DNA of 64,000 nt, taken from IMG/VR virus record IMGVR_UViG_3300017527_000512, positions 1-64,000 of that record; one strand, 5' to 3'. This stretch comes from a virus. Below, piece after piece: positions 925 to 49,820 of the stretch (within the stretch, counting starts at the first letter, position 1; each line of letters begins with the position of its first letter). A model generated the notes under the pieces. It saw only the letters and a list, made by a program, of their open reading frames with translations. It searched no databases and was not told the origin of the DNA. The position numbers and the translations under genes are program-made.

Positions 925-1442
925 GAGATAGACAGATAAGAGAAGCATTTTTACCTACGATCACTGAAGGTCTAATCATTCCAGAGAAATCCATTCACGA
1001 GAAATCTCATATAACAGATATTTCTGTATTTCGCGATGACTTATTTTATGCTTATGAAATAAAGTCAGATTACGATGATCTTCGTAGGTTACCTAATCAG
1101 GTTATTGAATACTCAAAGCACTATGATTTCTGTTCTATTATTACTACAGCAAAACACGTTTTAGAAGTCTCAAAATTAGTCCCACTTCATTGGCAGATAA
1201 TTCTAGCATGTGAATTCGGAGAATCAATTTCATTCCTTTCCTTAAGAAATGCTTTTTTATCAGATGATATTTCCGTGGAATCATTATGTGATTTTCTTCC
1301 TACAATAAATTTAAGAAAGATATTATCTATTCAAAACACTCGTAAGAGAACCAAATCTCGTAAAGTAATGTCGCAAATGATTGCACGAAGAAAAGATCTG
1401 ACTTCTTTCAGGAGCAGTGTGTATTCCTATTTAAAGAATTAA
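918..1442 (+). CDS. sce7726-like PD-(D/E)XK nuclease-fold protein
   Basis: A 174-aa basic protein resembling the sce7726 family, small proteins with a restriction-endonuclease-like core. The expected catalytic arrangement is visible: D34 in TDISVF, then E47-I-K49 in AYEIKSD, followed by DDLRRLPNQVIEYS, typical of the family. The C-terminus (residues ~140-174) is rich in Arg and Lys and could contact DNA. Its start has no Shine-Dalgarno and sits in a hairpin. Its TAA stop lies inside the first copy of the 57-nt repeat. Substrate unknown; it could act in host DNA attack or be a selfish element. Confidence 0.7.
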   Translation: MLRDRQIREAFLPTITEGLIIPEKSIHEKSHITDISVFRDDLFYAYEIKSDYDDLRRLPNQVIEYSKHYDFCSIITTAKHVLEVSKLVPLHWQIILACEFGESISFLSLRNAFLSDDISVESLCDFLPTINLRKILSIQNTRKRTKSRKVMSQMIARRKDLTSFRSSVYSYLKN

Positions 1443-1493
1443 CAGGGTACCCAAGAACTCACAGTAGAACAAAATCCATATCATTCCTCTAAC
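1437..1493 (+). repeat. 57-nt interspersed intergenic repeat, copy 1
   Basis: This element begins AATTAACAGGGTACC and continues with AGAACTCACAGTAGAAC, ending TCTAAC. It is identical over 57 nt to copy 2 (6180-6236) and closely matches copies at 28666-28723 and 49764-49820. It overlaps the stop codon of the upstream gene. No stable internal hairpin and no open frame were found. A TATAAATAC sequence, like the phage T4 late promoter box, follows at about 1508-1516. Function unknown. Confidence 0.95.
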
Positions 1494-1615
1494 CCATTAA
1501 AATATGCTATAAATACATCTATTATTTTATAATTTAGTATCCTAATTATATTCACCGTCTACATAGGGCGATAAATAATTAATAATTTATTTGGTAATAC
1601 TTATCGGAGATTTAT

Positions 1616-2044
1616 ATGAAGTTACATAAAGCACCTGCTAAATCAGAATTTAAAATTGAGTCTATTGATGATGTAATAGACCCGGATGAAGATTCGTGGG
1701 TAACTTTAGAAGCGAAGAGAACTGATCCCGATAAAGAAATAAAGAAGATGTACGATATCTGGATTGATTCAGATGAGATTTGGGACATTATCATTCAAAT
1801 ATTGAAAACTCGTTATGACATAGAAAACCTATCTAAATACTCTAAAGTAGGCAGATACATGAACAAGTATTTCAAAAAATCTCCTTCAAGACAATTTATT
1901 GAGAATTTCAAGCCAATGTTTCCTACTATAGGAAAACGTATGTTTCATGCTTTTAAGAAATATGTGGTCGATCCTAGAGCTTTTGATTCCTTTCCTAAAA
2001 TAAAGAAATATATAAAAACCTTACTTAACTACCTAAACAGTTAA
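1616..2044 (+). CDS. Hypothetical protein, 142 aa
   Basis: ATG start with a CGGAG ribosome site. The N-terminal ~45 residues are acidic (DDVIDPDEDSW); the C-terminal two thirds are basic and helical (GRYMNKYFKKSPSRQF, KIKKYIKTLL). No signal peptide or membrane segment and no family recognised. A minus-strand frame over the same bases is a shadow. The long leader after the 57-nt repeat (~120 nt, with a T4-late-like TATAAATA) suggests this may be the first gene of a transcription unit. Confidence 0.8.
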   Translation: MKLHKAPAKSEFKIESIDDVIDPDEDSWVTLEAKRTDPDKEIKKMYDIWIDSDEIWDIIIQILKTRYDIENLSKYSKVGRYMNKYFKKSPSRQFIENFKPMFPTIGKRMFHAFKKYVVDPRAFDSFPKIKKYIKTLLNYLNS

Positions 2045-2061
2045 CTTTAATAGAATATTCT

Positions 2062-2370
2062 TTGTCTCGTATACCTACTATCTATGAGATCCTCTTTCGG
2101 AAGAGAAACTTCGGAAACAAGAAGACTCAGAGCGATGACAAAGCCTCAAAAGATATTAGCTTCCTTTTGGGTTTTAAAAGATTAGGCTATCTAAACCCTC
2201 TTTTAAATAGATATAAAGAGAAGATTATGTGGCTGGCGGAAGGAGATGTCGATTTTATCGAACCTATTACTATTATCGATGACGAATTTTCTTCTCATGC
2301 AGATGCAGATGCAGATGCGGATTGTGGTATCAGTATCATCTTCAGACAAGGAGGTAGTCCTTTCTACTGA
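2062..2370 (+). CDS. Hypothetical protein, upstream half of a possible frameshifted pair
   Basis: A 102-aa frame starts at TTG with no clear ribosome site, 17 nt after the previous gene. The N-terminus is basic (FRKRNFGNKKTQ); the C-terminus is acidic and includes four Ala-Asp units (HADADADADC) encoded by a 6-nt tandem repeat. It ends at TGA 2368-2370. A near-perfect Shine-Dalgarno (AAGGAGGT, 2348-2355) sits 12 nt before that stop, but no start codon follows it at a usable distance. Reading GAA GGT after a +1 shift at the stop enters the next frame. It may encode the N-terminal half of one protein. Confidence 0.6.
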   Translation: MSRIPTIYEILFRKRNFGNKKTQSDDKASKDISFLLGFKRLGYLNPLLNRYKEKIMWLAEGDVDFIEPITIIDDEFSSHADADADADCGISIIFRQGGSPFY

Positions 2371-2680
2371 AGGTAATTATAGACAGCTTAGTTCGGATGA
2401 GTTAGGATCTACATTTCATATTCCCCCGAGTGAAGTTCCTACGGGAGCTATTAAAATTATAGAGAATAAGATAAAACGAGTATTCACTAATATAACTACT
2501 TATCTTTCACCTAATTTATTAGGAAAAGTTAAGTCAATAACTCCTTTATTTCTTAAATCTGCAGTACTTGTATGGAAAGTAGTGTGTTTAAGTTATGGCA
2601 CCTCGTGGAGAGGTTATTCAGCTCCTTGTCCTGAGTGCAGAAAAGGTTCTGTTCGAACAGTAGACGAAATAGATAAATAA
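2246..2680 (+). CDS. Hypothetical CPEC-containing protein, probably the downstream half of a frameshifted gene
   Basis: This frame overlaps the previous one by 125 nt in the +1 phase. Its first in-frame ATG (2246) directly abuts GGAAGGAG with no spacer, which is a poor start, and the translation before about residue 40 (LLLLSMTNFLLMQMQMQM) reads like an off-frame shadow of the repeat. The credible part begins near EGNYRQLSSDEL and ends with a Cys-pair motif (CPEC). Either translation reaches it by frameshifting from the upstream frame or a mutation split the gene. No family recognised. Confidence 0.5.
   Translation: MSILSNLLLLSMTNFLLMQMQMQMRIVVSVSSSDKEVVLSTEGNYRQLSSDELGSTFHIPPSEVPTGAIKIIENKIKRVFTNITTYLSPNLLGKVKSITPLFLKSAVLVWKVVCLSYGTSWRGYSAPCPECRKGSVRTVDEIDK
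2299..2322 (+). repeat. Tandem hexanucleotide repeat in coding sequence
   Basis: Three GCAGAT units followed by one GCGGAT. In the upstream frame they encode Ala-Asp pairs, in the overlapping frame Gln-Met pairs. Expansion or contraction by whole units would not change frame. It marks the region where the two overlapping frames coexist. Confidence 0.9.
2348..2370 (+). other. Candidate +1 recoding site: strong SD followed by TGA
   Basis: AAGGAGGT at 2348-2355 is the best Shine-Dalgarno match noticed in the window, yet no ATG, GTG or TTG follows it within initiation distance in the downstream frame. Twelve nucleotides later comes the TGA (2368-2370) of the upstream frame; moving one base forward there gives GAA GGT AAT, in the downstream frame. 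The bacterial prfB gene uses an SD-stimulated +1 shift at UGA, but with a shorter spacer, so the analogy is imperfect. Confidence 0.35.
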
Positions 2681-2732
2681 TACAACTTACATTTAATTTC
2701 TTATAGTTTATATCGCTATTTAAGGAATTATT

Positions 2733-3218
2733 ATGTCTATAGAAAAAGAAGCAGCTCAGGCATTAGCATCAGGTGAATTAGCCCCTTCTCTTATTAAGGG
2801 TATTAGTTGGATATGGCTAGTTATCGCTTTAGGTGTGGCTATGTTATCTACGGTTATATATAAATATGTTGTCAAAGCATTGGCGGATAGATTAATATTA
2901 TTCATTTCAAATGCAGCTTATACAGATAAAGGTAAATTAGTCTATATTAACGGGGAGAAATGGGTTATTCATAAGCTAGGTCTTTTTAGAGTCGATTTAA
3001 TTAAAGCAACTCTAGAAGAGAACCGAGGCAATAAGGAATACATGAAGAAGACACTTACAATTCCAATTACAAAGTATTTAAGTTCCAGCATAATATTTTA
3101 TGAGTACCCTAATCTGTACAGTGATCAAGATCTTTCAGATTTAAGTAATGGTAAATTAATAGAAATAACAAAAAGAATAGATGATTTAGAATCTAAGTAT
3201 ATAGGAGCACAAAAATGA
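2733..3218 (+). CDS. Membrane protein with a possible MscS-like beta domain
   Basis: A 161-aa protein with one clear membrane segment (about residues 26-50, WIWLVIALGVAMLSTVIY), AAGGA ribosome site. The following part (KLVYINGEKWVIHKLGLFRVDL, then LTIPITKYL) vaguely resembles the beta domain of MscS-type mechanosensitive channels, where a short beta barrel follows the pore helix. Only one transmembrane helix is present, fewer than in MscS, so this is a weak resemblance. Its stop overlaps the next start by 4 nt (ATGA), implying coupled translation with the polytopic membrane protein and, further on, the HD-GYP enzyme. Confidence 0.6.
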   Translation: MSIEKEAAQALASGELAPSLIKGISWIWLVIALGVAMLSTVIYKYVVKALADRLILFISNAAYTDKGKLVYINGEKWVIHKLGLFRVDLIKATLEENRGNKEYMKKTLTIPITKYLSSSIIFYEYPNLYSDQDLSDLSNGKLIEITKRIDDLESKYIGAQK

Positions 3219-4270
3219 TTTCATGGCTAAAAGATATTTTCAAGAGTTTTCTGCAAGGAAAGACAATTTCACAGGTAGAGGAAGATTATAAAGACCTGAT
3301 TGAAGAAGATTATAAGGTAGAAGAGAATAAACCAAAACAAGGTTTTATTGGAAGTCTTTTATCTAAGTATTATCCTATCTGGCTTATTATAATGATTCTT
3401 ATTATGCTAGCTGCGATTACATCTAAATATTGGTCTAAATTTATATTCAAGAATATTCGACCTTATATTCTAGATGTATCTTCTAGATGGAGTTGGTGGG
3501 GTTTTTCTATCTTTGTTATTTTTGGTTCATTGTTGGGTTATATTTGGGGATGGAGAATGCTTCATCTTGATATAGAAGTAAAACAGCTCTTTAATATTAC
3601 TCAAGATGTTCTCCCTGCATGGGCTTTCTTTAAACATACTGTTATGTTAGGGGATAAAATGGTTTTAGGATTCTCCTATGAGGACCTTTTCTTTTACCCT
3701 GTCGGAAATGCTTTCGCTTATTTAATGTATAAGTGCATAGGGGTGGACAATTTACTTAAGGATTTTAAATTTGAAATAAAAATCAAAGGAAATATAATAT
3801 TTCTGTTATCTCTTATAACCTTCTCTATGTGGGCCCATGCTTTTGTAGATTTTGGAGGACGTATTATGGTAGAATGCTTTGTACCGCTGGGTGTAATGTT
3901 ATATTTTCTTTGCCTAAATTATATAAATTTCAAGAGATTTCTAATATTTCAATTATGGGTAATCTTTATGGTTTTTTTATGGGATTTTACATCGGTAACT
4001 CTTTTTAAGAAGCTTGCAGATGTTTTTAATCTTCCTTTTGATCATCTATCTATGTGGTTTTATGGTATAAAATCTACTTCAGGGAATATTTCTTCTGTTT
4101 TATGGAAGAAGGATGTGTGGGCGTGGTTTTTCAAAAGAGAACCTTTCTCCATTTTAGTTACTTTTCCTTTGGTAACGTCTGTGTGGTCTGTGGGGTTAAT
4201 TGCTTTTATAGAGAATTTAGGAGATTTTATATGCGTTCAAAAAAGGAGAGGGAGAGGTCTAAAAGACTAG
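3215..4270 (+). CDS. Polytopic membrane protein, 351 aa
   Basis: A charged cytoplasmic-looking N-terminus (~50 residues) is followed by about seven to eight hydrophobic segments (LIIMILIMLAAIT, IFVIFGSLLGYIWGW, IIFLLSLITFSMW, LGVMLYFLCLNYI, LWVIFMVFLW, SILVTFPLVTSVW). A motif YEDLFFYPVGN recalls the E-x-x-FF signature of lycopene-cyclase-domain membrane proteins, but the likeness is short and I do not assign that function. It is translationally coupled to the upstream gene and overlaps the HD-GYP gene start by 40 nt, so these three genes probably form one membrane unit. Substrate unknown. Confidence 0.8.
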   Translation: MISWLKDIFKSFLQGKTISQVEEDYKDLIEEDYKVEENKPKQGFIGSLLSKYYPIWLIIMILIMLAAITSKYWSKFIFKNIRPYILDVSSRWSWWGFSIFVIFGSLLGYIWGWRMLHLDIEVKQLFNITQDVLPAWAFFKHTVMLGDKMVLGFSYEDLFFYPVGNAFAYLMYKCIGVDNLLKDFKFEIKIKGNIIFLLSLITFSMWAHAFVDFGGRIMVECFVPLGVMLYFLCLNYINFKRFLIFQLWVIFMVFLWDFTSVTLFKKLADVFNLPFDHLSMWFYGIKSTSGNISSVLWKKDVWAWFFKREPFSILVTFPLVTSVWSVGLIAFIENLGDFICVQKRRGRGLKD

Positions 4271-5388
4271 AGTTTTCAATTGTATTTGGGGCGATATGTA
4301 AGATTATTGCCAACATTATATTTTGTTTCTTCTTAGAGAAACATTATTTAATATCCTTTTTTATAATTTTAAGTATTGTCAATGCTGTTTTCCTTATTTT
4401 ATATTTTAAGAAGAAGGTAAAGATAGCTTTATTCTTTATTTTATCTATTGTTTTAGATACGCCTACATTATTTGCGTGTCTCCTTATTTTTAATAAGCCT
4501 GAGTTAGTCTTATTTCCTTTTGTTGTTTTAAGTATGTATGCTTGCTTCAATACTTTATTTATAAGATCGTCGACCATTAAATTCTTTTTATTCGTTTTCA
4601 TTTTTGTAGATGTCTTAATTTTATGCCTAGTCTTTAACTTTTCTATTATTTCAAAAATTATTTTCGTTATTTTGGGTTTCTTAATTTATTGGATCATTTT
4701 AAATGAGCATTATGTCTACAACAATTTTGCTAAAGACTTAGTTACCTTTAAGACTCGTTTAGAGAAGTCTAAGAAAGATCTGATATTAGGTATTGTCAAT
4801 GCTTTAAAATATCGTGATAATGATACCGGAATCCATAACCTGAGAATAGCTTACATGTCTAAATTAATGTCTTCTATTCTTAACATGCCTTTGATATTTA
4901 CTGATACTATATATTATGCTTCATCCTTACACGATGTAGGTAAAATGGCGATTCCAGATAATATTTTATTAAAGCCCGGTAAATTAGATCTAGAGGAAAG
5001 AGTGATTATAGAGAAGCATTCAGCTTTGGGAGGATCTTTTATCAGAAAGGCGTTGGGTGATGGAGGCATAGCATTCTTGCGAGATATGTCATATAATATA
5101 TCTATGTATCATCATGAGAGGTGGGACGGTACCGGATATCCTGAGAAGCTTTTTGGGGATAGGATTCCAATAGAGGCGAGAATAGTATCTATCTTAGATG
5201 TATTCGATGCTCTATCATTTGACAGACCTTATAAGGAAGCATGGGATACTTCTAGAGTAGTTACTTTTATTAAAGAGAATTCAGGCAAGATGTTTGATCC
5301 TAGGATAGTGGATATTTTTCTAGAGAATATAGAAGTATTTATCAGTATAAGAGATAAATCTTTTGATGATCTAAGTACTTATTTATAA
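4231..5388 (+). CDS. Membrane-bound HD-GYP cyclic-di-GMP phosphodiesterase
   Basis: I place the start at ATG 4231, after TTAGGAG, rather than at in-frame upstream codons that only shadow the previous gene; this gives 385 aa. About six membrane segments occupy residues ~12-165, then a short linker and an HD-GYP domain. Catalytic motifs are intact: TGIHNLR near the first helix, HD at 234-235 (LHDVGKMAIP), HHExWDGTGYP at 294-304, then a DVFDAL motif and RPYK. HD-GYP enzymes hydrolyse cyclic-di-GMP to pGpG or GMP. It acts at the host inner membrane by inference. A phage-borne, complete HD-GYP enzyme is unusual; a GGDEF-EAL partner lies at 56.6-59.2 kb. Confidence 0.92.
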   Translation: MRSKKERERSKRLEFSIVFGAICKIIANIIFCFFLEKHYLISFFIILSIVNAVFLILYFKKKVKIALFFILSIVLDTPTLFACLLIFNKPELVLFPFVVLSMYACFNTLFIRSSTIKFFLFVFIFVDVLILCLVFNFSIISKIIFVILGFLIYWIILNEHYVYNNFAKDLVTFKTRLEKSKKDLILGIVNALKYRDNDTGIHNLRIAYMSKLMSSILNMPLIFTDTIYYASSLHDVGKMAIPDNILLKPGKLDLEERVIIEKHSALGGSFIRKALGDGGIAFLRDMSYNISMYHHERWDGTGYPEKLFGDRIPIEARIVSILDVFDALSFDRPYKEAWDTSRVVTFIKENSGKMFDPRIVDIFLENIEVFISIRDKSFDDLSTYL

Positions 5389-5414: not shown

Positions 5415-6164
5415 ATGCGATTTACTCCTTTGACATCTTCGGCTATAGGATTTATGTCTAGCGAAGATTCTGTTATTTTTACTTCTTCAAATTCTAAATC
5501 ATTGTTAGAACAATGGAAAGATAATAGTTTTATCTTCAAAGAGGAGTTTGATTGGGCATGTAACAGGAAAAATATATCTAGAGAAGACAGAGATTTTATA
5601 TCCCGAGAACTTCGTAAGAGAGGTGTGGATATTAGAGATTCTGAGATAGATATAGAAGAGCTTCGTGTAAGTAGACTAACCTATTTAGAGTCTGGCTCAC
5701 ATATTGAAGATATGGTAGATTATGTTCACGGGGATTCAAACAATACAAAAACTCGTGATATCAATTCATATAAACGTTTGGATAGATATCCTCCATCAAA
5801 TAATATTCATCTTGCTTCGGATAAGTTTCTTAGTGTTTCAATTTCAGACAAACGACTTAAAGTATTAAAGAAAGCGATGCTCGGCTTAAATCTTGTTCGA
5901 TTTAATTATACTAGAATTACTGATGGAGTTTCTACTCCAGGTCGTGTAGTAGAACTTTATGATATTAAGAGAGGGAAAGGAGGTCGTTCTGGACGTTCTG
6001 GTGAGATAGTAGTTTGGGCTTATGATGTTTCTAAGAATGATAGACATATTAGAAAGTTTTATTTAAGTAGAGTGGCTAATCCATCTATTTTAAGAAGAAC
6101 TTATCGCCCTAGGTGGGATGTATCGATTGAATCTTCTCTTAATAGAAGAATAGGTGATATTTAA
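5415..6164 (+). CDS. WYL-domain protein
   Basis: A 249-aa protein whose last third (residues ~150-235) fits the WYL domain pattern: LKKAMLGLNLVRFNY, then GRVVELYDI, then IVVWAYDVSKNDRHIRKFYLSRV split over two strands. WYL domains are ligand- or nucleic-acid-sensing modules, common in transcription regulators and phage-defence or phage proteins. The N-terminal 130 residues are charged and helical (EFDWACNRKNISREDRDF) without an obvious helix-turn-helix. It follows the HD-GYP gene by 26 nt with its own AGGTGA site and is followed by repeat copy 2. A regulatory role is inference. Confidence 0.65.
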   Translation: MRFTPLTSSAIGFMSSEDSVIFTSSNSKSLLEQWKDNSFIFKEEFDWACNRKNISREDRDFISRELRKRGVDIRDSEIDIEELRVSRLTYLESGSHIEDMVDYVHGDSNNTKTRDINSYKRLDRYPPSNNIHLASDKFLSVSISDKRLKVLKKAMLGLNLVRFNYTRITDGVSTPGRVVELYDIKRGKGGRSGRSGEIVVWAYDVSKNDRHIRKFYLSRVANPSILRRTYRPRWDVSIESSLNRRIGDI

Positions 6165-6179: not shown

Positions 6180-6236
6180 AATTAACAGGGTACCCAAGAA
6201 CTCACAGTAGAACAAAATCCATATCATTCCTCTAAC
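6180..6236 (+). repeat. 57-nt interspersed intergenic repeat, copy 2
   Basis: Identical over all 57 bases to copy 1 at 1437-1493. It starts 15 nt after the stop of the WYL gene and ends 63 nt before the next start. A TATAAT-like sequence follows at about 6269-6274. The complete identity, nearly 5 kb apart and in noncoding sequence, means either recent copying or strong constraint. Confidence 0.95.
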
Positions 6237-7619: not shown

Positions 7620-9335
7620 ATGGAATCCCCTTTAGTATCTTTAAGTTCTGATATGGTCTTTGAAAGAAGCCTTCACATAGCTTATAAGGATAAAATATAT
7701 CTCCGTCAAGAGTTCTTCTCTTATCTTAATAGCCTTCATTTAGAGGGAAGAACTTTAATTTCTTTGCAGAAGGAGTACGGCATCCGTTATGATTTAATTA
7801 AGAAGGCTTTTATAAAGTATGGCCTTAAGAGATTATCTCAGGAAGAAACAAATAGATTGATATCCAGGAATGTTAAAGAATCTTTAATTACTAAATACGG
7901 GGTATCATCTCCTGCCCTTATTCCTGGAGTAAAGAATAAAATTAAGAACACTTGTATTGATCGTTATGGTACAGATAACCCTTTTTCAAACAAAGATATC
8001 CAGAGGAAATGTGTTTCAAACAAAGATTATGACTCGCTCCTGTCTAAGACGAGGTGTACTACTGAACGTAAATATGGAGTGGAACACATATTAAGCTCTC
8101 CAGAGATTCAGAAGAAAATCAAAAATACTTTAATCGATAGGTATGGGGTGTCAAATATCTTTTCTTCTAAGGAGCATATGTCTTCCTCTAGAGATAAATG
8201 CGTAAAAGATAATTATAATAAAGTAAAATTGCGATTAAAAGAAGATGATTATGAGATATTAGATGATTATAAAGGTCTGATGGAGAAGGATCTAAATTAT
8301 TCTTGGAAGATTTATAAGATTAAATGTCTAAAATGCGATTCTGTATTCGAAGATGATGTATATTTGAATCCTAAATGTTTAAATTGTTTTAAATCAGGGA
8401 CAAGATTCTCTTCAAAACAGGAAAAATATTATTCTGATTTTTTAACTAATGATTTGAAAGTGGAACACTCCACTAATAGTCATCCTTTTCCTTGGATAAA
8501 GAAGGAAGATATTCTTTCGAGGAAGTTTAGCCACGAGGTAGATATCTTTATTCCTGAGAAAAGAATGGGATTTGAAATAAATGGCTTATACACTCATGCA
8601 TCTGGAATAACTCCAAGATTCAGAGGCTCAGGTTCTTTAAAAGAGAAATCAACTTTATATCATCAAGATAAAACAATGGATGCCTTAGATGCGGGAATAT
8701 CATTATATCACATATGGGAAGATGATAACCCTGATATAATAAAATCTTTAATCTCTTCAAAGTTGGGAGTAACTTCTAAAAAGATATTTGCGAGAAAACT
8801 TGTCTTTGAGGAGATATCCTCTACAAGATGTAGAGATTTTCTTCAGGAGAATCATCTTCATGGATTTATAGGAGCTACTAGGTATTTCGCTTTGCACAAG
8901 GAGGATGAAATATTTGCTGCTATGTCTTTTATAAATAGAGGCGAAGGTGTATTTGAAATCCAGAGATTTGCAAGCAAATTAAGTTATTCTATTCCTGGAG
9001 GATTCTCCAAGATACTCAAACACTCTCTTTCTTCTTTGGAGGAGGTTTCTACTCTTTTATCATATGCATATGTAGATTGGTCTCCTAACTATAAGAATAC
9101 AGTTTATTACAAATACGGATTTTCTTATGAAGGAATAACTTCTCCTCGCCTTCTTTATTTTAATAAAAGAAGAAATGTCAGGGAGTCACGTCAAAAATAT
9201 CAAAAACATAAATTAAAGAAATTATTCCCGGAATCATATAGTGATTCACTAACAGCAAATCAAATATTATCAAAAGAAAGTATCTATCCAATTTATGATA
9301 GTGGAAATCATAAGTTCATTTATTCAGTTAAGTAG
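7620..9335 (+). CDS. Large homing-type nuclease: YG-repeats, zinc ribbon, Vsr-like nuclease, GNAT-like domain
   Basis: 571 aa. In order: repeated ITKYGVSSP / DRYGTDNP / RKYGVEH / DRYGVSN units (residues ~90-190), presumably DNA-contacting; a CxxC...CxxC ribbon (~235-260); a Vsr/EDxHD-like nuclease core with D308, E319-x-N321, H326 and D350-K351; and a C-terminal domain resembling GNAT/Mom-type folds (ENHLHGF, PGGFSKILKHSL, SYAYVDW, YYKYGFSYEG). The last 50 residues are basic. It starts 16 nt after a structural gene with no Shine-Dalgarno; both flanking genes are complete, so it is free-standing rather than intronic. It shares identical DNA patches with the paralogues at 14.2 and 36.3 kb. Confidence 0.85.
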   Translation: MESPLVSLSSDMVFERSLHIAYKDKIYLRQEFFSYLNSLHLEGRTLISLQKEYGIRYDLIKKAFIKYGLKRLSQEETNRLISRNVKESLITKYGVSSPALIPGVKNKIKNTCIDRYGTDNPFSNKDIQRKCVSNKDYDSLLSKTRCTTERKYGVEHILSSPEIQKKIKNTLIDRYGVSNIFSSKEHMSSSRDKCVKDNYNKVKLRLKEDDYEILDDYKGLMEKDLNYSWKIYKIKCLKCDSVFEDDVYLNPKCLNCFKSGTRFSSKQEKYYSDFLTNDLKVEHSTNSHPFPWIKKEDILSRKFSHEVDIFIPEKRMGFEINGLYTHASGITPRFRGSGSLKEKSTLYHQDKTMDALDAGISLYHIWEDDNPDIIKSLISSKLGVTSKKIFARKLVFEEISSTRCRDFLQENHLHGFIGATRYFALHKEDEIFAAMSFINRGEGVFEIQRFASKLSYSIPGGFSKILKHSLSSLEEVSTLLSYAYVDWSPNYKNTVYYKYGFSYEGITSPRLLYFNKRRNVRESRQKYQKHKLKKLFPESYSDSLTANQILSKESIYPIYDSGNHKFIYSVK

Positions 9336-14195: not shown

Positions 14196-15947
14196 ATGGA
14201 AGTACTCTATATCCCTTATGATATTAAAACATTAAGAATTAAAGATTCTTTATCTCCGTCAGATAAAGAATCTTTAATATCTCATTTTAAAGGAAGAATT
14301 CCACGTTCTCATCTGAGAATTTTAGAGAGTTCTTTTTCCTTTTCTTACAAGAGTCTTTCACTATCAATTAAAACACATTTATTCGTTCCTAAAGTGGGGT
14401 ATGTATCTTTAAAAGATTCTATTTTTTGGGGAAAAGTTTATGACCTTTATAAAGAAGTTTCCTCACTTAAGAAACTTTATCGTGACTTAGGCATACATCC
14501 TAAGACTCTTAAGAAAGCTTTTAACTTTTTTGGTTTTGAGTTATTGTCGAAGAATTTAACTTTAGATAAATCTATAGAACGTATGAGACATACTAATATT
14601 CTTAGGTATGGAGGTCCTTCTCCGAGATATAGTGAGGATGTTAATGATAAGATTAAGAGAACGTGTGAGAGTCTATATAATGGATCTTCTTCATTTTCTA
14701 GTCGAGATGTTCAGTCCAAATGTAAATCATCATTTGCTAAGAAGTATGGTGTTTCTAGTTTCTTTGGTACTAGGGAGTATAAAGAGGGTTTATTAAGAAC
14801 CCGTTTTTATAAAGTAAAATCTGATTTGGAGTCTTATGGTTATAAATTTTTAGACAATTTCATAGGCGACAGAGTCCAAGAAAACGGATGTAGGGAATAT
14901 ATAAGATATAAAATAAAACATTTAAAGTGCGGAACGATATTTGAAGACGATGTATATGCAGTTCCAAGATGCCCTAAATGTTTCTCATCCCCTTTTCATT
15001 CAAAATTAGAGTCCTTATATTCTCTATTTTTAGAGTCATTGGGTTTAGTTAAAGGAGAGAATTTTGTTGAGAACGATCAAGGCAGTGTTTTATGGAAATG
15101 TAAGTCCTCCAATTATAATAGAAAAGTTTATCACGAACTAGATCTTTTTTGTTCAGAAAGACGTTTAGCCTTCGAAATAAATGGTCTATATACTCATTCA
15201 TACGGTCATACTCCTATTTTTAAAGATGGGAGAACTCTTCAGAAGAAAGATAAATTATATCATAAGAATAAAACCGGAGATGCTTTACACTCAGGCGTAG
15301 ATCTTATCCACATATGGGAAGATGATAACCCTGATATAATAAAATCTAAGATACGGATTAAGTTATCTCATTTTTCAGTTAAGAGAATTTATGCAAGAAA
15401 ATGTGCTATTATCCATGTAGATTCCTTTATAGAAAGGGAATTTCTATGTGATAATCATCTTCACGGTTACGCTTCAAGCCTAAATAAATTTACTTATGGT
15501 TTAATGTATGAAGATATCTTAGTTTCTGTTATTTCTTTTAGACGGATGAGAAATGGTGATGTTGAACTAGCAAGATTTGCTAGTTTATTGAATACTGTAG
15601 TTATCGGAGGTTTTGGTAAACTCCTTAAAAGAATTTTACCTCTTTTGAAGTCGGAAGGATTTTCTAATTTGATATCTTATGCATATTCAGACTGGACTCC
15701 AGATTACAGAAACTCTGTTTATTACAAATACGGATTTTCTTATGAAGGATGGAAACAGCCATCTATGTATTATTGGAAATATTCTTCTAAGAAGAGGGAG
15801 TCACGTCAAAAATATCAAAAACATAAATTAAAGAAATTATTCCCAGAATCCTTTAACCCTTCTTTGAGAGAAATAGATATTTTAGCACTAAATAAAATAT
15901 ACCCAATATACAACAGTGGAAATCATAAGTTCTGTTTAACTCTTTGA
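14196..15947 (+). CDS. Large homing-type nuclease, second copy
   Basis: 583 aa, same architecture as the 7620-9335 gene: YG-type repeats (ILRYGGPSP, KKYGVSSFF), a zinc ribbon whose first pair is H-x2-C (HLKCG...CPKC), a Vsr-like core with D316, E327-x-N329 and H334, and the GNAT-like end (DNHLHGY, IGGFGKLLKRILP, SYAYSDW). It is inserted between the sheath and tube genes, 18 nt after the sheath stop, preceded by TATAAAAGGG. It shares 67 identical nucleotides (15676-15742) with the third copy and 49 (15796-15844) with the first, so the family exchanges sequence. Confidence 0.85.
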   Translation: MEVLYIPYDIKTLRIKDSLSPSDKESLISHFKGRIPRSHLRILESSFSFSYKSLSLSIKTHLFVPKVGYVSLKDSIFWGKVYDLYKEVSSLKKLYRDLGIHPKTLKKAFNFFGFELLSKNLTLDKSIERMRHTNILRYGGPSPRYSEDVNDKIKRTCESLYNGSSSFSSRDVQSKCKSSFAKKYGVSSFFGTREYKEGLLRTRFYKVKSDLESYGYKFLDNFIGDRVQENGCREYIRYKIKHLKCGTIFEDDVYAVPRCPKCFSSPFHSKLESLYSLFLESLGLVKGENFVENDQGSVLWKCKSSNYNRKVYHELDLFCSERRLAFEINGLYTHSYGHTPIFKDGRTLQKKDKLYHKNKTGDALHSGVDLIHIWEDDNPDIIKSKIRIKLSHFSVKRIYARKCAIIHVDSFIEREFLCDNHLHGYASSLNKFTYGLMYEDILVSVISFRRMRNGDVELARFASLLNTVVIGGFGKLLKRILPLLKSEGFSNLISYAYSDWTPDYRNSVYYKYGFSYEGWKQPSMYYWKYSSKKRESRQKYQKHKLKKLFPESFNPSLREIDILALNKIYPIYNSGNHKFCLTL

Positions 15948-23731: not shown

Positions 23732-26700
23732 AGAGTCAAAAGCTTTTAAGAAAGGTTCATCTACAGAAGAACCTAAAGAGAATAAGCAGGATAAGAAGCC
23801 TAAAAGAGAAGGATCCTTTATCCACGGAGGGAATTTCTTTTTACCTCAGATGGAGTTAAGGGTAGTTCCTGTTGACGAAGAAGATAAATTATCACCTCAT
23901 CTAGGTGTGGAAGGCTTCCCCGAAGACAATGCTTTAAAGTTCTCAGTTATGCGGCCTACAGAGACTAAATTTCTAGCTGATGCAGAACCTGAGTATTCAT
24001 TTTTCCTTCATTCTCCTCCTTCCGATATGCAGGTCAATTTCCAGTCGAATGTAGCAACATCAGACACTAGATATACTAAGATAATGAACTATTTAGGAGG
24101 AGAATTAATCACTGCTTCCTTTAGCGGAACAACACGTTCATGGCATCATAAGCATATAGGTGTGACAAACATCTTTAGAGGTGAGACAGATTCTTATAGA
24201 AACTTTATGGAGTTTATGATCCTATTTATGTTTAATGGCCGTGTTTATCATACTAATCCTAATCCAACTATTTTTGATGACTTAGTTAGAGGAAAATATA
24301 TAGTAGCGCCTGAAGATATCTTAGAAGACTCTACATTTTTAGAAGAGATAAAGAAGAAACCAAGATACTCGGCTTTTATTGCTATTGATGTGGGATATAT
24401 AAGACTTTATGGTAAATTCAGTAGTTTTTCATATGAAGAGGTGGGGCCTTATAATTACTCATTTAATTTTGATTTTACTGTTTGTGATATAGGATATACG
24501 GAGGATTATGCAAGTGATACTCAATTTGACATGTTTAGCTTTTATTATAATAGAGATTTTGGAGCTAAAGTGGAATCGAGCGGGCTTAAGGTAACCCCAT
24601 TTCCTCTTTTTAAGAAAGATATTATAGTAAGAGATATGTTTCTAAGAGTCAATCAAGATGTCCTGGGAGACCATTATAGTAATGATGGGTCGGGAGATAA
24701 AATTACAAGTAGTAATTATGCAAAATCTTTATCCTCAAATGATGATTCTAGCACTTCTTCTGTAAAGTATAAGGATATTCTAGACATTCTTCCTAGGGTA
24801 GCCACATATAACAAGTCTTTTGTCAGCTATCAGATGTCATATTCTTTGGAAGATAGTTCATGTTCTTTCGTTTACGCTTTAACGGACTTTGAAACTTATG
24901 CATTTCTTAAGTTTCAAATGAGCCCTGTCCATATCTTCTCAGAAGTAGAGCTTTTTGAAACAGGTAGATTTCCTATTCAGAAGAAAGGGGATGATAAGGG
25001 ATTAGAAATTACGACGCCTTATTATAGAAGATTTTGGGGTGTTGCAGTTAGCAAGAACATTTCAACTGGCGTTAGTGGAGGAAAGGTTCTATCCGTTAAT
25101 TGTAACAGTATTCTTTATTTCTTGAAGAGAAGTAAGTTTCCTATAGGATCGAATCCTATTCAAACATCTAAAGCTATTTATCTTCAAGTTGACTCAAAGA
25201 AAGGTTCTGATAAACGTGAAGTAAAAGAAATCGATGTTAAAGAGTTAAGCATGGGTGCTTTCTCTCAGGCGAATATGAATATTTTTGACTTGATTCTTTG
25301 GTCTATAATGAGAGCGATGTCATATTTTATAATGCCTGAATCCCAGGGATCAGTTACAGCGGCTACGGGAGATGCTAAGGTTTCAGAATCTGAAAAGATT
25401 GTTTGGTCGAAGACGAGAGAAGACGTTCAATCTTATTGGGCAGAAAGACTGTCTCAAGTAACTCAATCTTTAAAGTTTTATGGAATCAGTGATGCTACTT
25501 TCTATCAGACCAAGGCGGAGAAGTCGGGAAAAGCAGAGGATGAAAATCCAGATTTATATAAAGTAAAAGTATCTTTAGATACTTCTTATTTAACTATGTT
25601 CAACCCTAGATGGATTGATGTTTTAGAAGACAAATTCAAAGATGTTGAGCAGACGGATGTGTACGAATATATAAAATCTGTAACTTCTACAACGGGAATG
25701 GAATTCTATCAGGATGTTGATGGGTCTATGGTTATAAAATTCCCTTTTTATAATTTAAATATTTTTAATTATAAACCTTTTACCGTCGAGACTCTAGATA
25801 TTATAAACATTGATTACAATGAGAGCATGGAAGGTATAAACACTTTCTGTGAGATTACAGGATCTCTGGATTCAGCAAGATCTCATGATAAAGCGATATG
25901 GGCTTTTCATATAGACTCTAATCTCGCTGCTAGATTTGGTCTTGTAGGAGAGAGCAAGCCTATTCCTTATATAAATACTATAGGTTCTGCTAAGGTATTT
26001 GCTATTAATTATCTTACTTTATTAAATCTCCAACAATATTCTTTGAGACTTCAGATAAAGTCTCGTCCAGAGCTTAAGATAGGATTCCCTATTTATATCA
26101 AACATTTAGATGTTATAGGATATGTAACAGAGATTAGTAGGTCTGGTTCTGTAGGATCTAATAGCGATATGGATGTAACTTTAACAGGTCTTCGTTTCAG
26201 ATTATATAACAAGGAAGGTAATATTCTTGCTAACCTAGGTATAAGACGTGATATCGAGGTAACAGAGGTTGATATTGAGAATTCTTCAAATACAGATTTC
26301 AATGCATATGATCCTGCTTTCCCAGGATTTAGGTATGACGGAGCGAAGACTATTCCGGTACCTGAAGATTTAGATGAGATAAATCTAGATGACGGCTCCT
26401 CAGAGAATACTCCTTATGAGCAGTTATTTGCAGTAAGCCCTGATCCAGATGGGGTAGATTCTTTTTATCCTGTTACAGATAGATTTGGTTTTACGGTTGT
26501 AGGTGGCCTTGCTTATGGTAGAGGCATGAAGATATCGTCTGATGGACAAAAGATATTATACGATTTTGATATGTCTCTTCCTGTTTACAAAAGACAAGGA
26601 GCAGGCAATAATATATTGAAAGAAAGCAGTCCTAAAAACGTTTCTAGAAATGATGTTGTTGAGGCGAAAACATTTAAAGAGCTAGAAGAGAAAGCAACTA

Positions 26701-28187: not shown

Positions 28188-28666
28188 TGGAAAAGAATTT
28201 TTGTAATGAGGATGTTGTTTTTGAGTTTGATTTAGATGCTTCATCTGAGTCCTCGATTTTTACTGCTCCTGTTAGTAACGGAGAAGCTGAGACAACAACT
28301 TCTGGAGTAATCCCTGGAAAATCTTCATGTAACGATTGTCCTAAAGGTAAAGCATTAATGGATGGGACGACTTCATTTTCATGGAACGTTGCTCTAGCAC
28401 CTTGCCCTATCGCATCTTTGGCTCCGCCACCCTCTCCTAATCCGGGTTTTTCTTCTGTTACTTTTATAGCGGGCGGGGGATCAATTTCAGGTAATTCCGA
28501 TTTTAATGACTCAGAGTCAGATAAAGTCATGTTAGATGATGCTGAAGGCAGTTGTGCAGGGACTTGGACTTGTGTTCCGTCTTCGGGAGGCCCTCCAGTA
28601 ACCTTACCTTGTTCGTGCAAAGTTACTATAAAAGATTCAGGTCAGGATAATGTTACAGAGGATTAA
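28187..28666 (+). CDS. PAAR-like spike tip protein
   Basis: 159 aa, start coupled to the spike stop (TAATG). Cys-, Pro- and Gly-rich, with GGGSISGNSDFND, CAGTWTCVPSSGGPPVT and LPCSCKVTIKDSGQDNV, a pattern close to PAAR-like/DUF4150 proteins that cap spike needles of contractile injection systems. About ten cysteines (FCNED, CNDCPKG, APCPIAS, SCAGTWTC, LPCSC) may bind metal, as the histidine-cysteine site of PAAR tips does. A minus-strand frame over this gene is a shadow. Repeat copy 3 begins on its last stop base. Confidence 0.72.
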   Translation: MEKNFCNEDVVFEFDLDASSESSIFTAPVSNGEAETTTSGVIPGKSSCNDCPKGKALMDGTTSFSWNVALAPCPIASLAPPPSPNPGFSSVTFIAGGGSISGNSDFNDSESDKVMLDDAEGSCAGTWTCVPSSGGPPVTLPCSCKVTIKDSGQDNVTED

Positions 28667-28723
28667 ATTAACAGGGTACCGGAGAACTGACAGTAGGAGA
28701 AATTCTATGTTATTTCTTCTAAC
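28666..28723 (+). repeat. 57-nt interspersed intergenic repeat, copy 3 (diverged)
   Basis: Keeps AATTAACAGGGTACC exactly, then has GGAGAACTGACAGTAGGAG in place of the consensus and ends TCTAAC. Changes are substitutions without matching partners, arguing against a simple base-paired stem. It begins at the last base of the PAAR gene stop codon and lies 20 nt upstream of the HNH-type nuclease gene. Confidence 0.9.
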
Positions 28724-36252: not shown

Positions 36253-37944
36253 ATGTATACTTACGTTAGTAAGTTTCAGAATTTACTAAAACTGCTTATC
36301 AAAGTTAAAGAGATCAGCCCTATTTATGTAGATTTAATGTCTGGGATAATTTCAGGCAGAGAATCTTCTTCAAGAATGACTTCTGTAATGCCTGCTTCTC
36401 ATCGAACAAAAGTTCGTAAATCTATTGGGTTTCCTAGTAAAGAGTCTATATGGATTTCAGAGCTAGGATTTGTACATCTAAACAGTGATTTTTGGGATCA
36501 TCTATACTCCGAATACTTATCAAAATCATTACGTCAAATTTCCATAGATAATGGAAATCTTTCTATAGCTACGATAAAGTCATATTTTAATAGAAGAGGG
36601 TTTCCTTTAAAGTCTAAAGAGGAGTTAAGATCCTCTATTTCATTTTTAACAAAGAATGCATTAAACACTAAATATGGGGTTAATTCTCCTCAGCAACTGA
36701 AGTCTGTTTCAGATAAAAGAATAAAAACTAATATGAAACGTTACGGAGGCAAATCCCCTGCATCATCATCAAAAATCTTATCAAAGATGATAAGAACTTC
36801 TTTATCGTTATCCTATGATAGACTTTATTCTAGTTTAAAAGCGTATAATTTTACCATTTTATCTTTGAAGGACGATTACAAAGGCGAAAGGTACTACGAT
36901 AGTGATAGCATCCTTCGAGATTTTAAATATTCTTTGAGATGTGATTCCTGTGGATTCTCTTTTAGTCAAGGAATCTTCCGTATACCTACTTGCCCTAATT
37001 GTTCGGACAGTTCTAGCACCTTCATCTCTTCAGGAGAGAAGAGAATATTATCTTTTATTAGAGGCATGGGCATAGAATGCTCTAGCAATTACAAGAGATT
37101 TGTGAGTTCAGGTATAGCTGAACTGGACATATACATTCCGTCAAAGAACATAGCAATAGAATACAATGGATTCTTAACCCATTGCTCCGGTCACAACGGT
37201 TTAGTATCCCCTTTCAGGAAAGAGGAAATGATCCTTCCTAAGAGCAGATCATATCACAGAGACAAAACAACATTATGTCTTGATGGAGGTATATCATTAT
37301 ACCACATCTGGCAGGGAGATCCTTTACATATCATTTACTCAAAGCTACGTGTTATCTTAGGAGATAACTCTAATATTACTCGAGTATTCGCAAGAAAGTG
37401 TTCTTTCCGTAAGATATCCATATCTGAATCTTCTTTATTTTTTAATAAATATCACCTCCACGGGAACGCTTCATCTTCTAAGGATTTTATATTTGGGTTG
37501 TTTCTTGGTGACGAGCTTATATCATGTATTTCTTTCAGAAGATACTCTAAATCCTCGATAGAGATAGCTAGATTCGCTACAAAGTTAGATACCATAGTTG
37601 TAGGCGGGTTCTCTAAATTACTTAACAATGTACTTCTTTTATTGAGAGGTAACTTCAAATCGATTATTACTTATGCATATTCAGACTGGACTCCAGATTA
37701 CAGAAACTCTGTTTATTACAAATACGGATTTTCTTACCTAGAACTTACATCTCCTTCTTTATTTTACTGGAAGAAGGGATCTGATACCAGAGTTCATCGC
37801 CAGAAGTACCAGAAACATAAATTAAAGAAATTATTCCCAGAATCCTTTAACCCTAATCTAACAGCAAATCAAATATTATCAAAAGAAAGTATCTATCCAA
37901 TTTATGATAGTGGAAATCATAAGTTCATTTATAGGATATTATAA
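36253..37944 (+). CDS. Large homing-type nuclease, third copy
   Basis: 563 aa. The N-terminal ~130 residues differ from the other copies; YG-type repeats follow (NTKYGVNSP, MKRYGGKSP), a zinc ribbon (CDSCGF...CPNCSD), a Vsr-like core with D292, E303-x-N305 and H310, and the GNAT-like end (KYHLHGNAS, VGGFSKLLNNVLL). It starts 3 nt after the previous gene without a Shine-Dalgarno; the ATG lies in a 5-bp ACATA/TATGT mini-hairpin. Its 3' end shares 75 identical nucleotides (37858-37932) with the first copy and 67 (37670-37736) with the second. Confidence 0.85.
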   Translation: MYTYVSKFQNLLKLLIKVKEISPIYVDLMSGIISGRESSSRMTSVMPASHRTKVRKSIGFPSKESIWISELGFVHLNSDFWDHLYSEYLSKSLRQISIDNGNLSIATIKSYFNRRGFPLKSKEELRSSISFLTKNALNTKYGVNSPQQLKSVSDKRIKTNMKRYGGKSPASSSKILSKMIRTSLSLSYDRLYSSLKAYNFTILSLKDDYKGERYYDSDSILRDFKYSLRCDSCGFSFSQGIFRIPTCPNCSDSSSTFISSGEKRILSFIRGMGIECSSNYKRFVSSGIAELDIYIPSKNIAIEYNGFLTHCSGHNGLVSPFRKEEMILPKSRSYHRDKTTLCLDGGISLYHIWQGDPLHIIYSKLRVILGDNSNITRVFARKCSFRKISISESSLFFNKYHLHGNASSSKDFIFGLFLGDELISCISFRRYSKSSIEIARFATKLDTIVVGGFSKLLNNVLLLLRGNFKSIITYAYSDWTPDYRNSVYYKYGFSYLELTSPSLFYWKKGSDTRVHRQKYQKHKLKKLFPESFNPNLTANQILSKESIYPIYDSGNHKFIYRIL

Positions 37945-46141: not shown

Positions 46142-46162
46142 AATAAATTATTAGGTGTTTTT

Positions 46163-47071
46163 ATGTCATTAAGTCTTATTTCAGAGGCTGTTAAAGCTCG
46201 TTTTTGTTATGCTCATTATTTAATTGAAGATTTTAATATCTACTTTGATGTTTATTTAGACAAGTCAGACAGATCTTTAAAAATACCTTTAGTAGTTTTC
46301 TGTAAAGATATTCCATTATATTACGTCGTTTATTCGTTATCGCCAGCTATCCATGACGACGTATTTTCTTTAAATTTGGATAAGATTTACCAGAAATCTT
46401 TATCTTTTTATTTGTCTTATTTTATTTTAACTGAGTTATCTAAAGGAAAAGAGTTAGGTAATTTTACTTCTGATTTTGAGGATACATTAGAACATATATT
46501 TTTTGACTTTGTATCGAAGTTAAATATTCATAGAGAAAAGCTTATTGTTTCATTTAAGGATTCGTATAGAGATTCAGCTATTATTTCTAATATTTCCTCT
46601 TTTAATAAAGAGAAGATAACTAATTTAGAGAAAGTCGATTCGAGATTAGAAGGTCGATTTAACATTCTAGCGAAACAGGGTTTCTTATTCTCTCTGGATA
46701 CGAATAATCCTAGTGACTGCCGATTTTGGGCAGACTCTCAGTTAGGCAAGACAATTTTTATCTATGTTAGAGATAAGCTAGTGGAATTCCTTCAATTAAA
46801 TCTATCTCGTGATGGCGGAAATTCTATGATAAAATTCGTAGATTCTTATTCAGACCATAAATTTAATATTTTCTTGAAGAACCTTGAAGACACTCCTTTT
46901 TCTAGCGTTAGTGGATCAATCCCTAAAGAAGATTCCTTAACATTTAGAGATAAAGAGATTACTATTAATAAAATTATTAAGATCTTAAATAAAGAGAAGT
47001 TTAAGAAAGATGACTTCTTTAGTGATTTATTTGAGAGGTTACAAGATGAAAGTACGTCCATTGATAAGTAG
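46163..47071 (+). CDS. Hypothetical protein, 302 aa
   Basis: AGGTG ribosome site. Soluble alpha-beta protein with a charged Lys-rich C-terminus (INKIIKILNKEKFKKDDFF). No family recognised. The next gene starts inside its end (26-nt overlap). A minus-strand frame in this region is a shadow. Together with the neighbours it forms an unknown cluster between the fibre genes and the helicase. Confidence 0.8.
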   Translation: MSLSLISEAVKARFCYAHYLIEDFNIYFDVYLDKSDRSLKIPLVVFCKDIPLYYVVYSLSPAIHDDVFSLNLDKIYQKSLSFYLSYFILTELSKGKELGNFTSDFEDTLEHIFFDFVSKLNIHREKLIVSFKDSYRDSAIISNISSFNKEKITNLEKVDSRLEGRFNILAKQGFLFSLDTNNPSDCRFWADSQLGKTIFIYVRDKLVEFLQLNLSRDGGNSMIKFVDSYSDHKFNIFLKNLEDTPFSSVSGSIPKEDSLTFRDKEITINKIIKILNKEKFKKDDFFSDLFERLQDESTSIDK

Positions 47072-47228: not shown

Positions 47229-47263
47229 TTTATTATATAATTAGTATATACAGGAATATAATT

Positions 47264-48295
47264 ATGAAAATAAAACCGTTTATCTCTGAAAGTGAAGAAG
47301 TTGATATTGTTGAAGAATCCGTTGACGAGATAGATTCTGATTCTATTGATGAAGTCGAAGAAGTAGAGGAATCCTCTCCAGAGACTGATTATACTAAGGT
47401 TTTGACTCCTAAAGAATTAACAGAATCTGAAGAGATTCAAGAAGAACTTGATCTATCACTTGATTATCAAGATTTCTTAGATAGAAATGTAGACGATTTA
47501 AACAAGCATTGGGATAATTTTAGAAACGACCTTAAATCTGTTTCTTCTATTTTAGGTGAGAAGGTTATTGACCCGAAAGCATTAAAATCTTTATTACAAC
47601 TTGTTAAAAGTGATGTTTCTTCTATAAATGGCTCTATTTCCTCTGTTTCTAATTTCTTTAAAGATTTAACCGATAGAGTAGAAGATGCTTTAAACTCTGC
47701 AGAATACCTTACTTCTTCGGCTTTATCTGAATCTGGATTTAAAGCAGAGCATACGGATAAGTTTTCCTCTGATTTTCTTAAGAAGATGTATCGATCTCAC
47801 GTTTCTAGCATGAAAGCAGAAGGTGATTTCACCTATTTTGCATCGGACGAGTTAAAAGAGAAGTATCAAGAATTAGATGTTCTTCTTCTTAAAGGCCATA
47901 TTAATAAGGGGATTGCCTCTACATTGATGTCTGTTACAGACGAAATGCTTAAAAGAGGTCTTCTTAGCTCTTCTAGTTATTTATCTTCAGATTCTTACAA
48001 GAAGATAAAGCAGTTTGATTCAGCTGAAGCGTTGTCAATGAAAATAGAATTATTTGTTGAAGGGGATGATTTATATGCATATATCTCAGATGAGGTAGGT
48101 GGTTTAGATAAAACAACTAAACATAAGGCAGTAGACATCTTCAAGAAATACCCTCATATTTTAGATGCTCTAAAGAAAAAAGGGTTTAAAACAGCAGAAG
48201 AGATTATAGAATCTTTCGGAAAGAAGAAATTATCTAAAATAGATGTAGTTCTTGACATTGATGGTGATATTAAAGAAATAAATAAAGAATCTTAA
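47264..48295 (+). CDS. Acidic coiled-coil protein with MKxKP N-terminus, 343 aa
   Basis: N-terminus MKIKPFISESEEV followed by ~60 strongly acidic residues (DSIDEVEEVEESSPE), then long helices (LDRNVDDLNKHWDNFRNDL, SSINGSISSVSNFFKDL) and a folded C-terminal part ending VLDIDGDIKEINKES. The combination of acidic disordered stretch and coiled coil is seen in phage scaffold-like and internal virion proteins. AGGAA ribosome site with a repeated ATATAATTA motif around it. Function not assigned. Confidence 0.75.
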   Translation: MKIKPFISESEEVDIVEESVDEIDSDSIDEVEEVEESSPETDYTKVLTPKELTESEEIQEELDLSLDYQDFLDRNVDDLNKHWDNFRNDLKSVSSILGEKVIDPKALKSLLQLVKSDVSSINGSISSVSNFFKDLTDRVEDALNSAEYLTSSALSESGFKAEHTDKFSSDFLKKMYRSHVSSMKAEGDFTYFASDELKEKYQELDVLLLKGHINKGIASTLMSVTDEMLKRGLLSSSSYLSSDSYKKIKQFDSAEALSMKIELFVEGDDLYAYISDEVGGLDKTTKHKAVDIFKKYPHILDALKKKGFKTAEEIIESFGKKKLSKIDVVLDIDGDIKEINKES

Positions 48296-48322
48296 CTTTA
48301 ACCTTTATCTTTAGGTTGTATT

Positions 48323-48344
48323 TTAGTATTAATTCTAATACTAA
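48323..48344 (+). promoter_or_regulatory. Hairpin in the leader of the SNF2-type helicase gene
   Basis: A 9-bp perfect stem (TTAGTATTA / TAATACTAA, loop ATTC) ends 8 nt before the ATG and pairs the first bases of the AAGAGA ribosome-site region. It could lower translation or be an operator; other leaders (before 16035, 47264, 60334) also carry TTAGTAT-type sequences. Confidence 0.45.
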
Positions 48345-48352
48345 GAGATTTT

Positions 48353-49762
48353 ATGCCCCAAATTGATTTTAATTTAATCGCCGATTTACCTCGTCAACCT
48401 CGCCCTATTCAAAAAGAAGCAGTGGTATTCTTGATGCATACTAACAGGTCTATTTTAGCAGACGGGGTTGGACTTGGAAAAACTTCGTCAGCACTTTTTG
48501 CTTACGAGTATTATAGAAGACTCTGTGGAAATTCTACTAAACTTTTATTCTTATGTAAGAAGACAGCTTTATTTAAAATAGGCAGAGAAGTTGAGGTAAC
48601 TTTAGGCAGAGAGCCTGTTATTTTTGTTCCTACTGGATCTATTAGTAGAAAAGCTGCGTGTTTACATTCATGGAAACATGATGGTAACGACGTTATGATT
48701 ATGACTCATGACTCCTTTAAAAGAGAATATGACGAGCTTCTCCCCCTTATTTGCTCTGATAGAGATGCTTTAGTAGTGGATGAAGTTCACAGATTTAAAA
48801 CATTTTACCCGAAAGCGTCAGCCAATTGGAAATACTTAAGTAATATTTCTAAGTATTTCAAGATTCTTTGGACTCTTACAGCCACAGCATTTGAGAACTC
48901 TCCAATGGAAGTTTATGGTATATTTAGTGCGATAGACCCTTCCTATGCGGGATCCTTTGACTGGTTTCTAGAAACCTTTTGTAATTTTAATACTATTCAA
49001 GATACATACTACATTTACGGAATTAGAAATCCAGAGTACTATAATTATGTCTACCGAAAGGTACTAATGAGAGCATCTTCAGATGAAATGCCTAAAGGTC
49101 ATATTCATGAGATTGTGGTAGATCTTAATCCAGAGCAAATAGAGAAATACGCAAAGATAAAAGCTCAATATGCAGAGCTTAAAAGATATCAGATGACTTT
49201 TGGAACTGCAGAGAACAACGAATTACAGGTTTTAGTAGATGCTCCCGCATTAAAAGGTTTAAACTGCGGGTCACCTAAAGCAGAAGCATTATTAAATTTT
49301 ATGAACAATAATCCAGACGATAAGTTTGTTTTATATTCTTTCTTTAAAGATATTTTATATTGGTATTGTGACTTCTTTAATACTAATGAGATTCCTACAA
49401 GATACATAAGTGGCGACATTACATCTTCAGCAGAACGCGATCAGATAATTCAAGAATTTAATAAAGATGATGGAGGCATTAGAACCCTTCTAGTCAATTC
49501 AGCTGCAGCAGATTCAGTGGATTTACCTGCAGCTAGATTCTTGATTATGATAAACCTTCCATATTCAGCCATTGAATTTGAGCAGGTCAAAGGACGTATT
49601 ATGCGTTTAATTTCTACTTTTGAAGAAGTTCATTATTTCATATTATTAGCAGGAGAGGTAGATGAGGATCATTGGGCTATCTTAAATAAGAAAGGAGACC
49701 AGTCTCGTAAGACTAAAGAACAATCTCATCTAGTTTGGAAGAATCTCCAGGAAAGGGCATAG
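48353..49762 (+). CDS. SNF2-type DNA helicase/translocase
   Basis: 469 aa. Walker A GVGLGKT at residues 38-44 (ADGVGLGKTSSALFAY), DEVH box at 143-146, motif III TLTATAFENSP, and a helicase C-terminal domain with KFVLYSFFKDILYWY, IPTRYISGDITSSAER, LLVNSAAADSVDLPAA and INLPYSAIEFEQVKGRIMR. This is a superfamily 2 SNF2-like ATPase of the size of small phage enzymes that reshape DNA during recombination or repair; T4 UvsW is a functional but not a close analogue. It is flanked by structural genes, not by the replication cluster at the right end. Confidence 0.85.
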   Translation: MPQIDFNLIADLPRQPRPIQKEAVVFLMHTNRSILADGVGLGKTSSALFAYEYYRRLCGNSTKLLFLCKKTALFKIGREVEVTLGREPVIFVPTGSISRKAACLHSWKHDGNDVMIMTHDSFKREYDELLPLICSDRDALVVDEVHRFKTFYPKASANWKYLSNISKYFKILWTLTATAFENSPMEVYGIFSAIDPSYAGSFDWFLETFCNFNTIQDTYYIYGIRNPEYYNYVYRKVLMRASSDEMPKGHIHEIVVDLNPEQIEKYAKIKAQYAELKRYQMTFGTAENNELQVLVDAPALKGLNCGSPKAEALLNFMNNNPDDKFVLYSFFKDILYWYCDFFNTNEIPTRYISGDITSSAERDQIIQEFNKDDGGIRTLLVNSAAADSVDLPAARFLIMINLPYSAIEFEQVKGRIMRLISTFEEVHYFILLAGEVDEDHWAILNKKGDQSRKTKEQSHLVWKNLQERA

Positions 49763-49763
49763 A

Positions 49764-49820
49764 AATTAACAGGGTACCTAAGAACTCACAGTAGAACAAA
49801 ATCCTACTATCTTCTCTAAC
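49764..49820 (+). repeat. 57-nt interspersed intergenic repeat, copy 4
   Basis: Conserves AATTAACAGGGTACC and AGAACTCACAGTAGAAC with AAAATCC exactly as copies 1 and 2, diverging only in the section before the final TCTAAC. It starts two bases after the helicase stop codon. Two perfect hairpins follow at 49844-49898 before the fibre gene. Confidence 0.95.

Follow-up and report, generated by a model that had tools for sequence, protein, structure and literature searches.

Promoters and operators that are specific to a phage and dispersed over its genome are a familiar kind of element. In Bacillus phage 0305phi8-36, a 21-bp repeat present in 14 copies has been proposed to be a phage-specific promoter and is absent from a B. 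thuringiensis genome (PMC2147016). The element described here resembles this repeat in that both are dispersed over noncoding gaps of promoter size, in phages with genomes of 218 kb and ~218 kb, and in that the function of each is deduced from placement; at the same time, 0305phi8-36 has a candidate RNA polymerase gene, whereas none was recognised in our ~218-kb phage, and its repeat is 21 bp long as opposed to a 31-bp core with a 4-nt internal spacer here (PMC2147016). SPBRE of prophage SPbeta is likewise a dispersed, conserved intergenic element that was recognised in silico long before its protein; it differs in being a 15-bp motif bound by the repressor MrpR of a temperate phage (PMC10516654), whereas no lysogeny genes were recognised in our ~218-kb phage. 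SAS and ESAS of the cluster K mycobacteriophages are repeated intergenic control elements, nearly all of them in one orientation, as here; however, SAS (GGGATAGGAGCCC) is found near start codons, whereas our element begins ~60–180 nt upstream of them, and ESAS are inverted repeats, whereas our element has no shared inverted repeat (PMC3203893, PMC12699233). Differing from SAS in both sequence and position, the element does not belong to that class. In the middle promoters of T4, formed by a MotA box and a −10 element, a phage activator box replaces the −35 element, which is similar to the arrangement proposed below, the MotA box being short, about 9 bp.

The window, that is, the whole stretch of 64,000 nucleotides analysed here, occupies positions 1–64,000 of a virus record of 164,540 bp that has nearly all its genes on the plus strand. 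The element occurs in just one more IMG/VR contig, IMGVR_UViG_3300017527_000423 (53,524 bp), and this contig overlaps the window's record by 84 identical nt (end of the contig, start of the window) and by 38 identical nt (start of the contig, end of the record). Across the first of these two junctions, a homing-endonuclease-like frame stays open. Given the overlaps at both ends and the continuous frame, the two records are almost certainly pieces of one circular phage genome of ~218 kb. Terminase, portal, and major head protein are encoded on the second contig, and none of the three was recognised in the window's record. In view of the end overlaps, the idea that the second contig comes from a separate, distant phage in which the element is conserved was rejected, and thus its copies are within-genome copies and not a case of evolutionary conservation. 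The genome is broken between the records at a repeated homing-endonuclease-like gene; such genes, which share the C-terminus RQKYQKHKLKKLFPES, are found at 7620–9335, 14196–15947, and 36253–37944 of the window and at the second contig's end. The relatives found via tail sheath and terminase searches are all remote (TerL identity 20–28%), and the nearest named ones are ~25–29% identical in terminase and baseplate protein.

Several otherwise different proteins of this genome share an N-terminal tag, MKxKPFISE/MKSRPFIS (37990 and 47264 in the window; 86698, 86948, 91851, 149561, and 150384 in the window's record; 24265, 24594, and 40887 in the second contig), and a by-eye reading suggests HD-GYP-like, GGDEF-EAL-like, and MinD/FlhG-like proteins at 4054–5388, 56562–59150, and 60678–61403 of the window, respectively. 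Outside the window, the region 87735–88117/88118–89710 of the record contains a Ro60/TROVE gene (Pfam TROVE, E 8.8e-38; Ro60 vWA, E 1.6e-59), whose protein is ~40% identical to actinophage Ro-like proteins. Closely upstream of it lies a YrlA-like (Y RNA) match, with E 2.2e-7 and a score under the Rfam gathering score, which overlaps two tRNA-like matches; judging by these matches, the phage probably carries Ro60 and a Y RNA as a pair. A 0.7-kb noncoding stretch of the record upstream of tRNA-Val (92481–93176), with no other Rfam match than that tRNA, may hold an undescribed RNA.

An initial annotation of the window had described four copies of a ~57-nt repeat. All four were found again on the plus strand, at 1437–1493, 6180–6236, 28666–28723, and 49764–49820 (copies 1–4), and share AATTAACAGGGTACC exactly, copies 1 and 2 being identical over 57 nt, as had been claimed. 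Extended to the whole ~218-kb genome, the motif search yielded 16 copies, 12 in the window's record (including the four in the window) and four in the second contig, all on the plus strand, the direction of the downstream genes. With up to three mismatches, the joined core pattern gives 11 copies in the window's record, all of them on the plus strand, and a reversed control pattern gives zero matches where the element pattern gives its copies; the twelfth copy of this record, found by the PWM scan at 154328, is degenerate. The scan scores are bimodal (47–57 for the real copies, 26 for the degenerate copy at 154328, and −3.5 for the next-best site). The 15-mer alone, allowing up to three mismatches, is not rare in the window, with 5 matches found versus 1.6 expected.

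Alignment of the 16 copies shows that the conserved part is a 31-bp core, AAWTAACAGGGTA-N4-AGAACTSACAGTAG. The annotated ~57-nt repeat exists, but only 31 nt of it are rigid and the remaining 26 nt drift, the mean pairwise difference being 10% in the core and 44% in columns 32–57. Columns 1–13 and 18–31 are near-invariant, so that ~26 of the 31 bp are fixed, and in block 1 columns 1, 2, 4, 6, and 9–13 are invariant; the S position of the core is C in 10 copies and G in six, and the 4-nt spacer between the two blocks varies in sequence, never in length. In the window, block 1 occupies positions 1437–1449, 6180–6192, 28666–28678, and 49764–49776, and block 2, 4 nt after it, positions 1454–1467, 6197–6210, 28683–28696, and 49781–49794. 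In copy 1, the core (1437–1467) is followed by a tail (1468–1493); across the copies, the tail keeps TCC at element positions 39–41, T at 45 (15 of 16), and CTCTAA near 51–56, and this weakly conserved stretch, 1475–1492 in copy 1, is the putative −10 and start region. Farther downstream, a TATAAATA-like box (1508–1515 in the leader of copy 1) begins at element positions 70–72 in 12 of the 16 copies, compared with a shuffle mean of ~5. Hence the TATAA-like sequence noted initially is indeed present downstream, but its distance is not wholly varied. Some leaders are duplicates, those at 86621 and at 46655 of the second contig having 52 identical nt, and thus shared ancestry contributes to this positional count; the conservation of the −10-like segment may also be partly due to shared ancestry.

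The placement of the copies relative to gene ends in the complete genome is strongly non-random. Against a baseline of 7.8% of positions for wholly noncoding 45-nt windows, the 16 copies lie almost always in the promoter-sized noncoding gap between the end of one gene and the start of the next gene cluster, and none sits mid-gene. In the window, the upstream stop codon is inside copy 1 (TAA at 1440–1442, element positions 4–6), 15 nt before copy 2 (6162–6164), ends on position 1 of copy 3 (28664–28666), and is 1 nt before copy 4 (49760–49762). The link to stop codons proposed by the initial annotation holds for these four copies, but it is looser genome-wide: the element starts no more than 15 nt past, or 5 nt ahead of, the stop-codon end (−15..+6) in 11 of the 16 copies, and the closing upstream frame is within −44..+25 in 15 of them. 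The copy at 86559 has no clear upstream ORF, and in five copies the stop codon is supplied by the element's own AAT-TAA. Downstream, the first start codon is ~60–180 nt from the first base of the element (in the window, ATG at 1616, 6300, 28744, and 49903), and in the short-leader copies, 28666, 118293, 154328, and 24535 of the second contig, at about 60–92 nt. Copy 2 heads a probable tail-gene cluster, copy 3, which is of the G-type (S=G) and has a self-complementary tail, the cluster of a baseplate J-like protein, and copy 4 a probable tail-fibre gene cluster; over the genome, the clusters downstream of the copies comprise tail, baseplate, and tail-fibre genes, DNA polymerase, UvsX-like recombinase, helicase, and clamp loader.

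Beyond this genome, none of 50,697 phage records and 72,556 plasmids matched the element by blastn, and pattern searches of IMG/VR gave no convincing independent carrier besides the second contig. Further viral matches to relaxed patterns were dismissed as chance, being single copies out of the element's context and mostly within open frames, as was a one-mismatch viral match that lies opposite the end of a coding ORF. In 84,980 GTDB species genomes, which may not include the host of the phage, two patterns gave 0 and 1 match, the single match falling within a 647-codon open frame; as neither the GTDB nor the plasmid searches gave a convincing carrier, a host or plasmid origin of the element was rejected. 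The core is also absent from loci (4–23 kb each) of the remote relatives. The sequence of the element is new. A remnant of a mobile unit, one of the uses considered initially, is not favoured, since the core is near-constant while the tails differ by 44%, and since mid-gene copies are lacking.

Among the candidate uses put forward by the initial annotation, a protein-binding site fits best. Two near-invariant blocks at a fixed spacing are the conservation profile of a double-stranded bipartite recognition site. We propose, with moderate confidence, that the element is a phage-specific promoter that heads gene clusters and is composed of a bipartite factor-binding core, a degenerate −10-like segment, and a start near CTCTAA. 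The promoter role, start site, and recognising factor that we infer would be combined in the following way. The 31-bp core, with AAWTAACAGGGTA and AGAACTSACAGTAG separated by 4 unfixed nucleotides, would be a bipartite site for a phage or phage-modified host factor, spanning roughly −54 to −24 relative to a start of transcription close to CTCTAA (positions 51–57); the weakly conserved TCC-W-N-N-T segment (39–45) would fall in the −10 region, and transcription would run from the element into the next gene cluster. Such a start would leave room for a leader with a Shine–Dalgarno site in 15 of the 16 copies, and the adjacency to stop codons would follow from a compact genome, where the promoter fills the intergenic gap. 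In the four short-leader copies, the distance from element to gene is too small for a promoter plus leader, and thus, provided that the element drives transcription, the start must lie within the element; this start position and the Shine–Dalgarno room favour a phage-specific promoter. Further points for it are that the clusters headed by the copies cover all functions and that the core has been kept while the tails diverged. A promoter scanner found no conventional or consensus sigma-70 promoter within the four window copies. Against the promoter model, the copy at 24535 of the second contig would have a leader of only ~5 nt, and the positioned TATAAATA-like box is a competing −10. If this box, present in 12 of the 16 copies, is read as a T4-late-type promoter, no leader is left in copies 28666, 118293, and 154328, where a Shine–Dalgarno site directly follows TATAAA.

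Searches for the recognising protein yielded no RNA polymerase, sigma factor, or recognised activator among the proteins scanned, which comprise part of the ORFs, and no MotA, AsiA, or gp55-type factor among the Pfam and PHROG matches listed. PF00940 had no match in a search of the window's record, which picked up no control either, nor in the Pfam scans of the second contig. A YonO-type polymerase was rejected as the factor, as the DxDGD-type signature was found in no plausible ORF. The remote relative Tunturi_5 carries annotated sigma-factor and antiterminator genes; these two were rejected too, as neither has a detectable homologue in the ~218-kb phage. A KOW-motif pattern search produced nothing convincing.

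Since nearly all genes lie on one strand, the common orientation of the copies alone cannot separate a DNA-level role from an RNA-level one. A cis-acting RNA element between cistrons, serving in the transcript as a processing, translational-control, or antitermination (put/nut-like) signal, would agree with the strand-specific, intergenic occurrence and with the strong folds of some copies: copy 28666 forms a strong hairpin (−19.7 kcal/mol, z −3.2), and copies 67095 and 148001 fold well (z −3.1 and −2.9, respectively), all three having S=G and a drifting tail complementary to the core. The initial statement that there is no internal hairpin is thus incorrect for copy 3, although it is true that strong folding is absent from most copies. 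However, the commonest version (1437, 6180, and 125633) has no stable fold (z +0.9), and RNAalifold gave zero consensus pairs and no covariation over the 16 copies. A conserved RNA structure was rejected, as the individual folds differ and have no consensus pair, and the RNA processing structure suggested at first is not supported as a conserved feature. Rfam has no match to the element in the window, so that neither an Rfam model nor a covarying structure marks it as a structured cis-regulatory RNA. We regard a cis-acting RNA element as a minor but realistic possibility; as the strong hairpins are confined to the S=G copies, an RNA role is possible for this subclass. A 3′ untranslated, terminator, or RNA-stability element of the upstream gene, which would account for the copies lying close behind the upstream stop (11 of 16 within −15..+6), seems quite improbable: a new gene cluster always follows, in four copies little of the next gene's leader lies outside the element, and the intrinsic terminator envisaged initially gained no support, as a GC-rich hairpin with a T-run was found at none of the four window copies.

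At the DNA level, the asymmetric, dispersed, intergenic sites could also be operators of a phage repressor or regulator, like SPBRE/MrpR or the mycobacteriophage stoperators, that acts on a separate promoter, e.g., the TATAAATA-like box positioned downstream in 12 of the 16 copies. This is unlikely, as no repressor was identified in the ~218-kb phage, four copies leave no room for a downstream promoter and a leader, and the core, with ~26 fixed bases in 31 bp, is larger than the 15-bp SPBRE motif. A promoter of a T7-like single-subunit RNA polymerase, with the start at the core end, is suggested by the purine-rich sequence past position 31 and by block 2, which resembles the core of the T7 promoter (ACTCAC-AGTAG-G versus ACTCAC-TATAG-G in T7). 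T7-type promoters reach upstream to about −17, whereas here the constrained sequence extends 30 nt upstream; with no PF00940 match in the searches above and no DxDGD-type signature in a plausible ORF, this explanation is very improbable.

We tentatively consider it possible, though not likely, that the core is read by a transcription factor or RNA polymerase outside the current profiles, whose bipartite specificity would be unusually long (~26 fixed bases in 31 bp), and that the G-type copies, in which tail and core pair, constitute a second, structure-dependent class of the signal. The ~218-kb phage represents an undescribed, unclassified lineage, for which the element would give a provisional transcription map, and the 31-bp site with its 16 natural variants would be a bait for the phage protein that redirects transcription.
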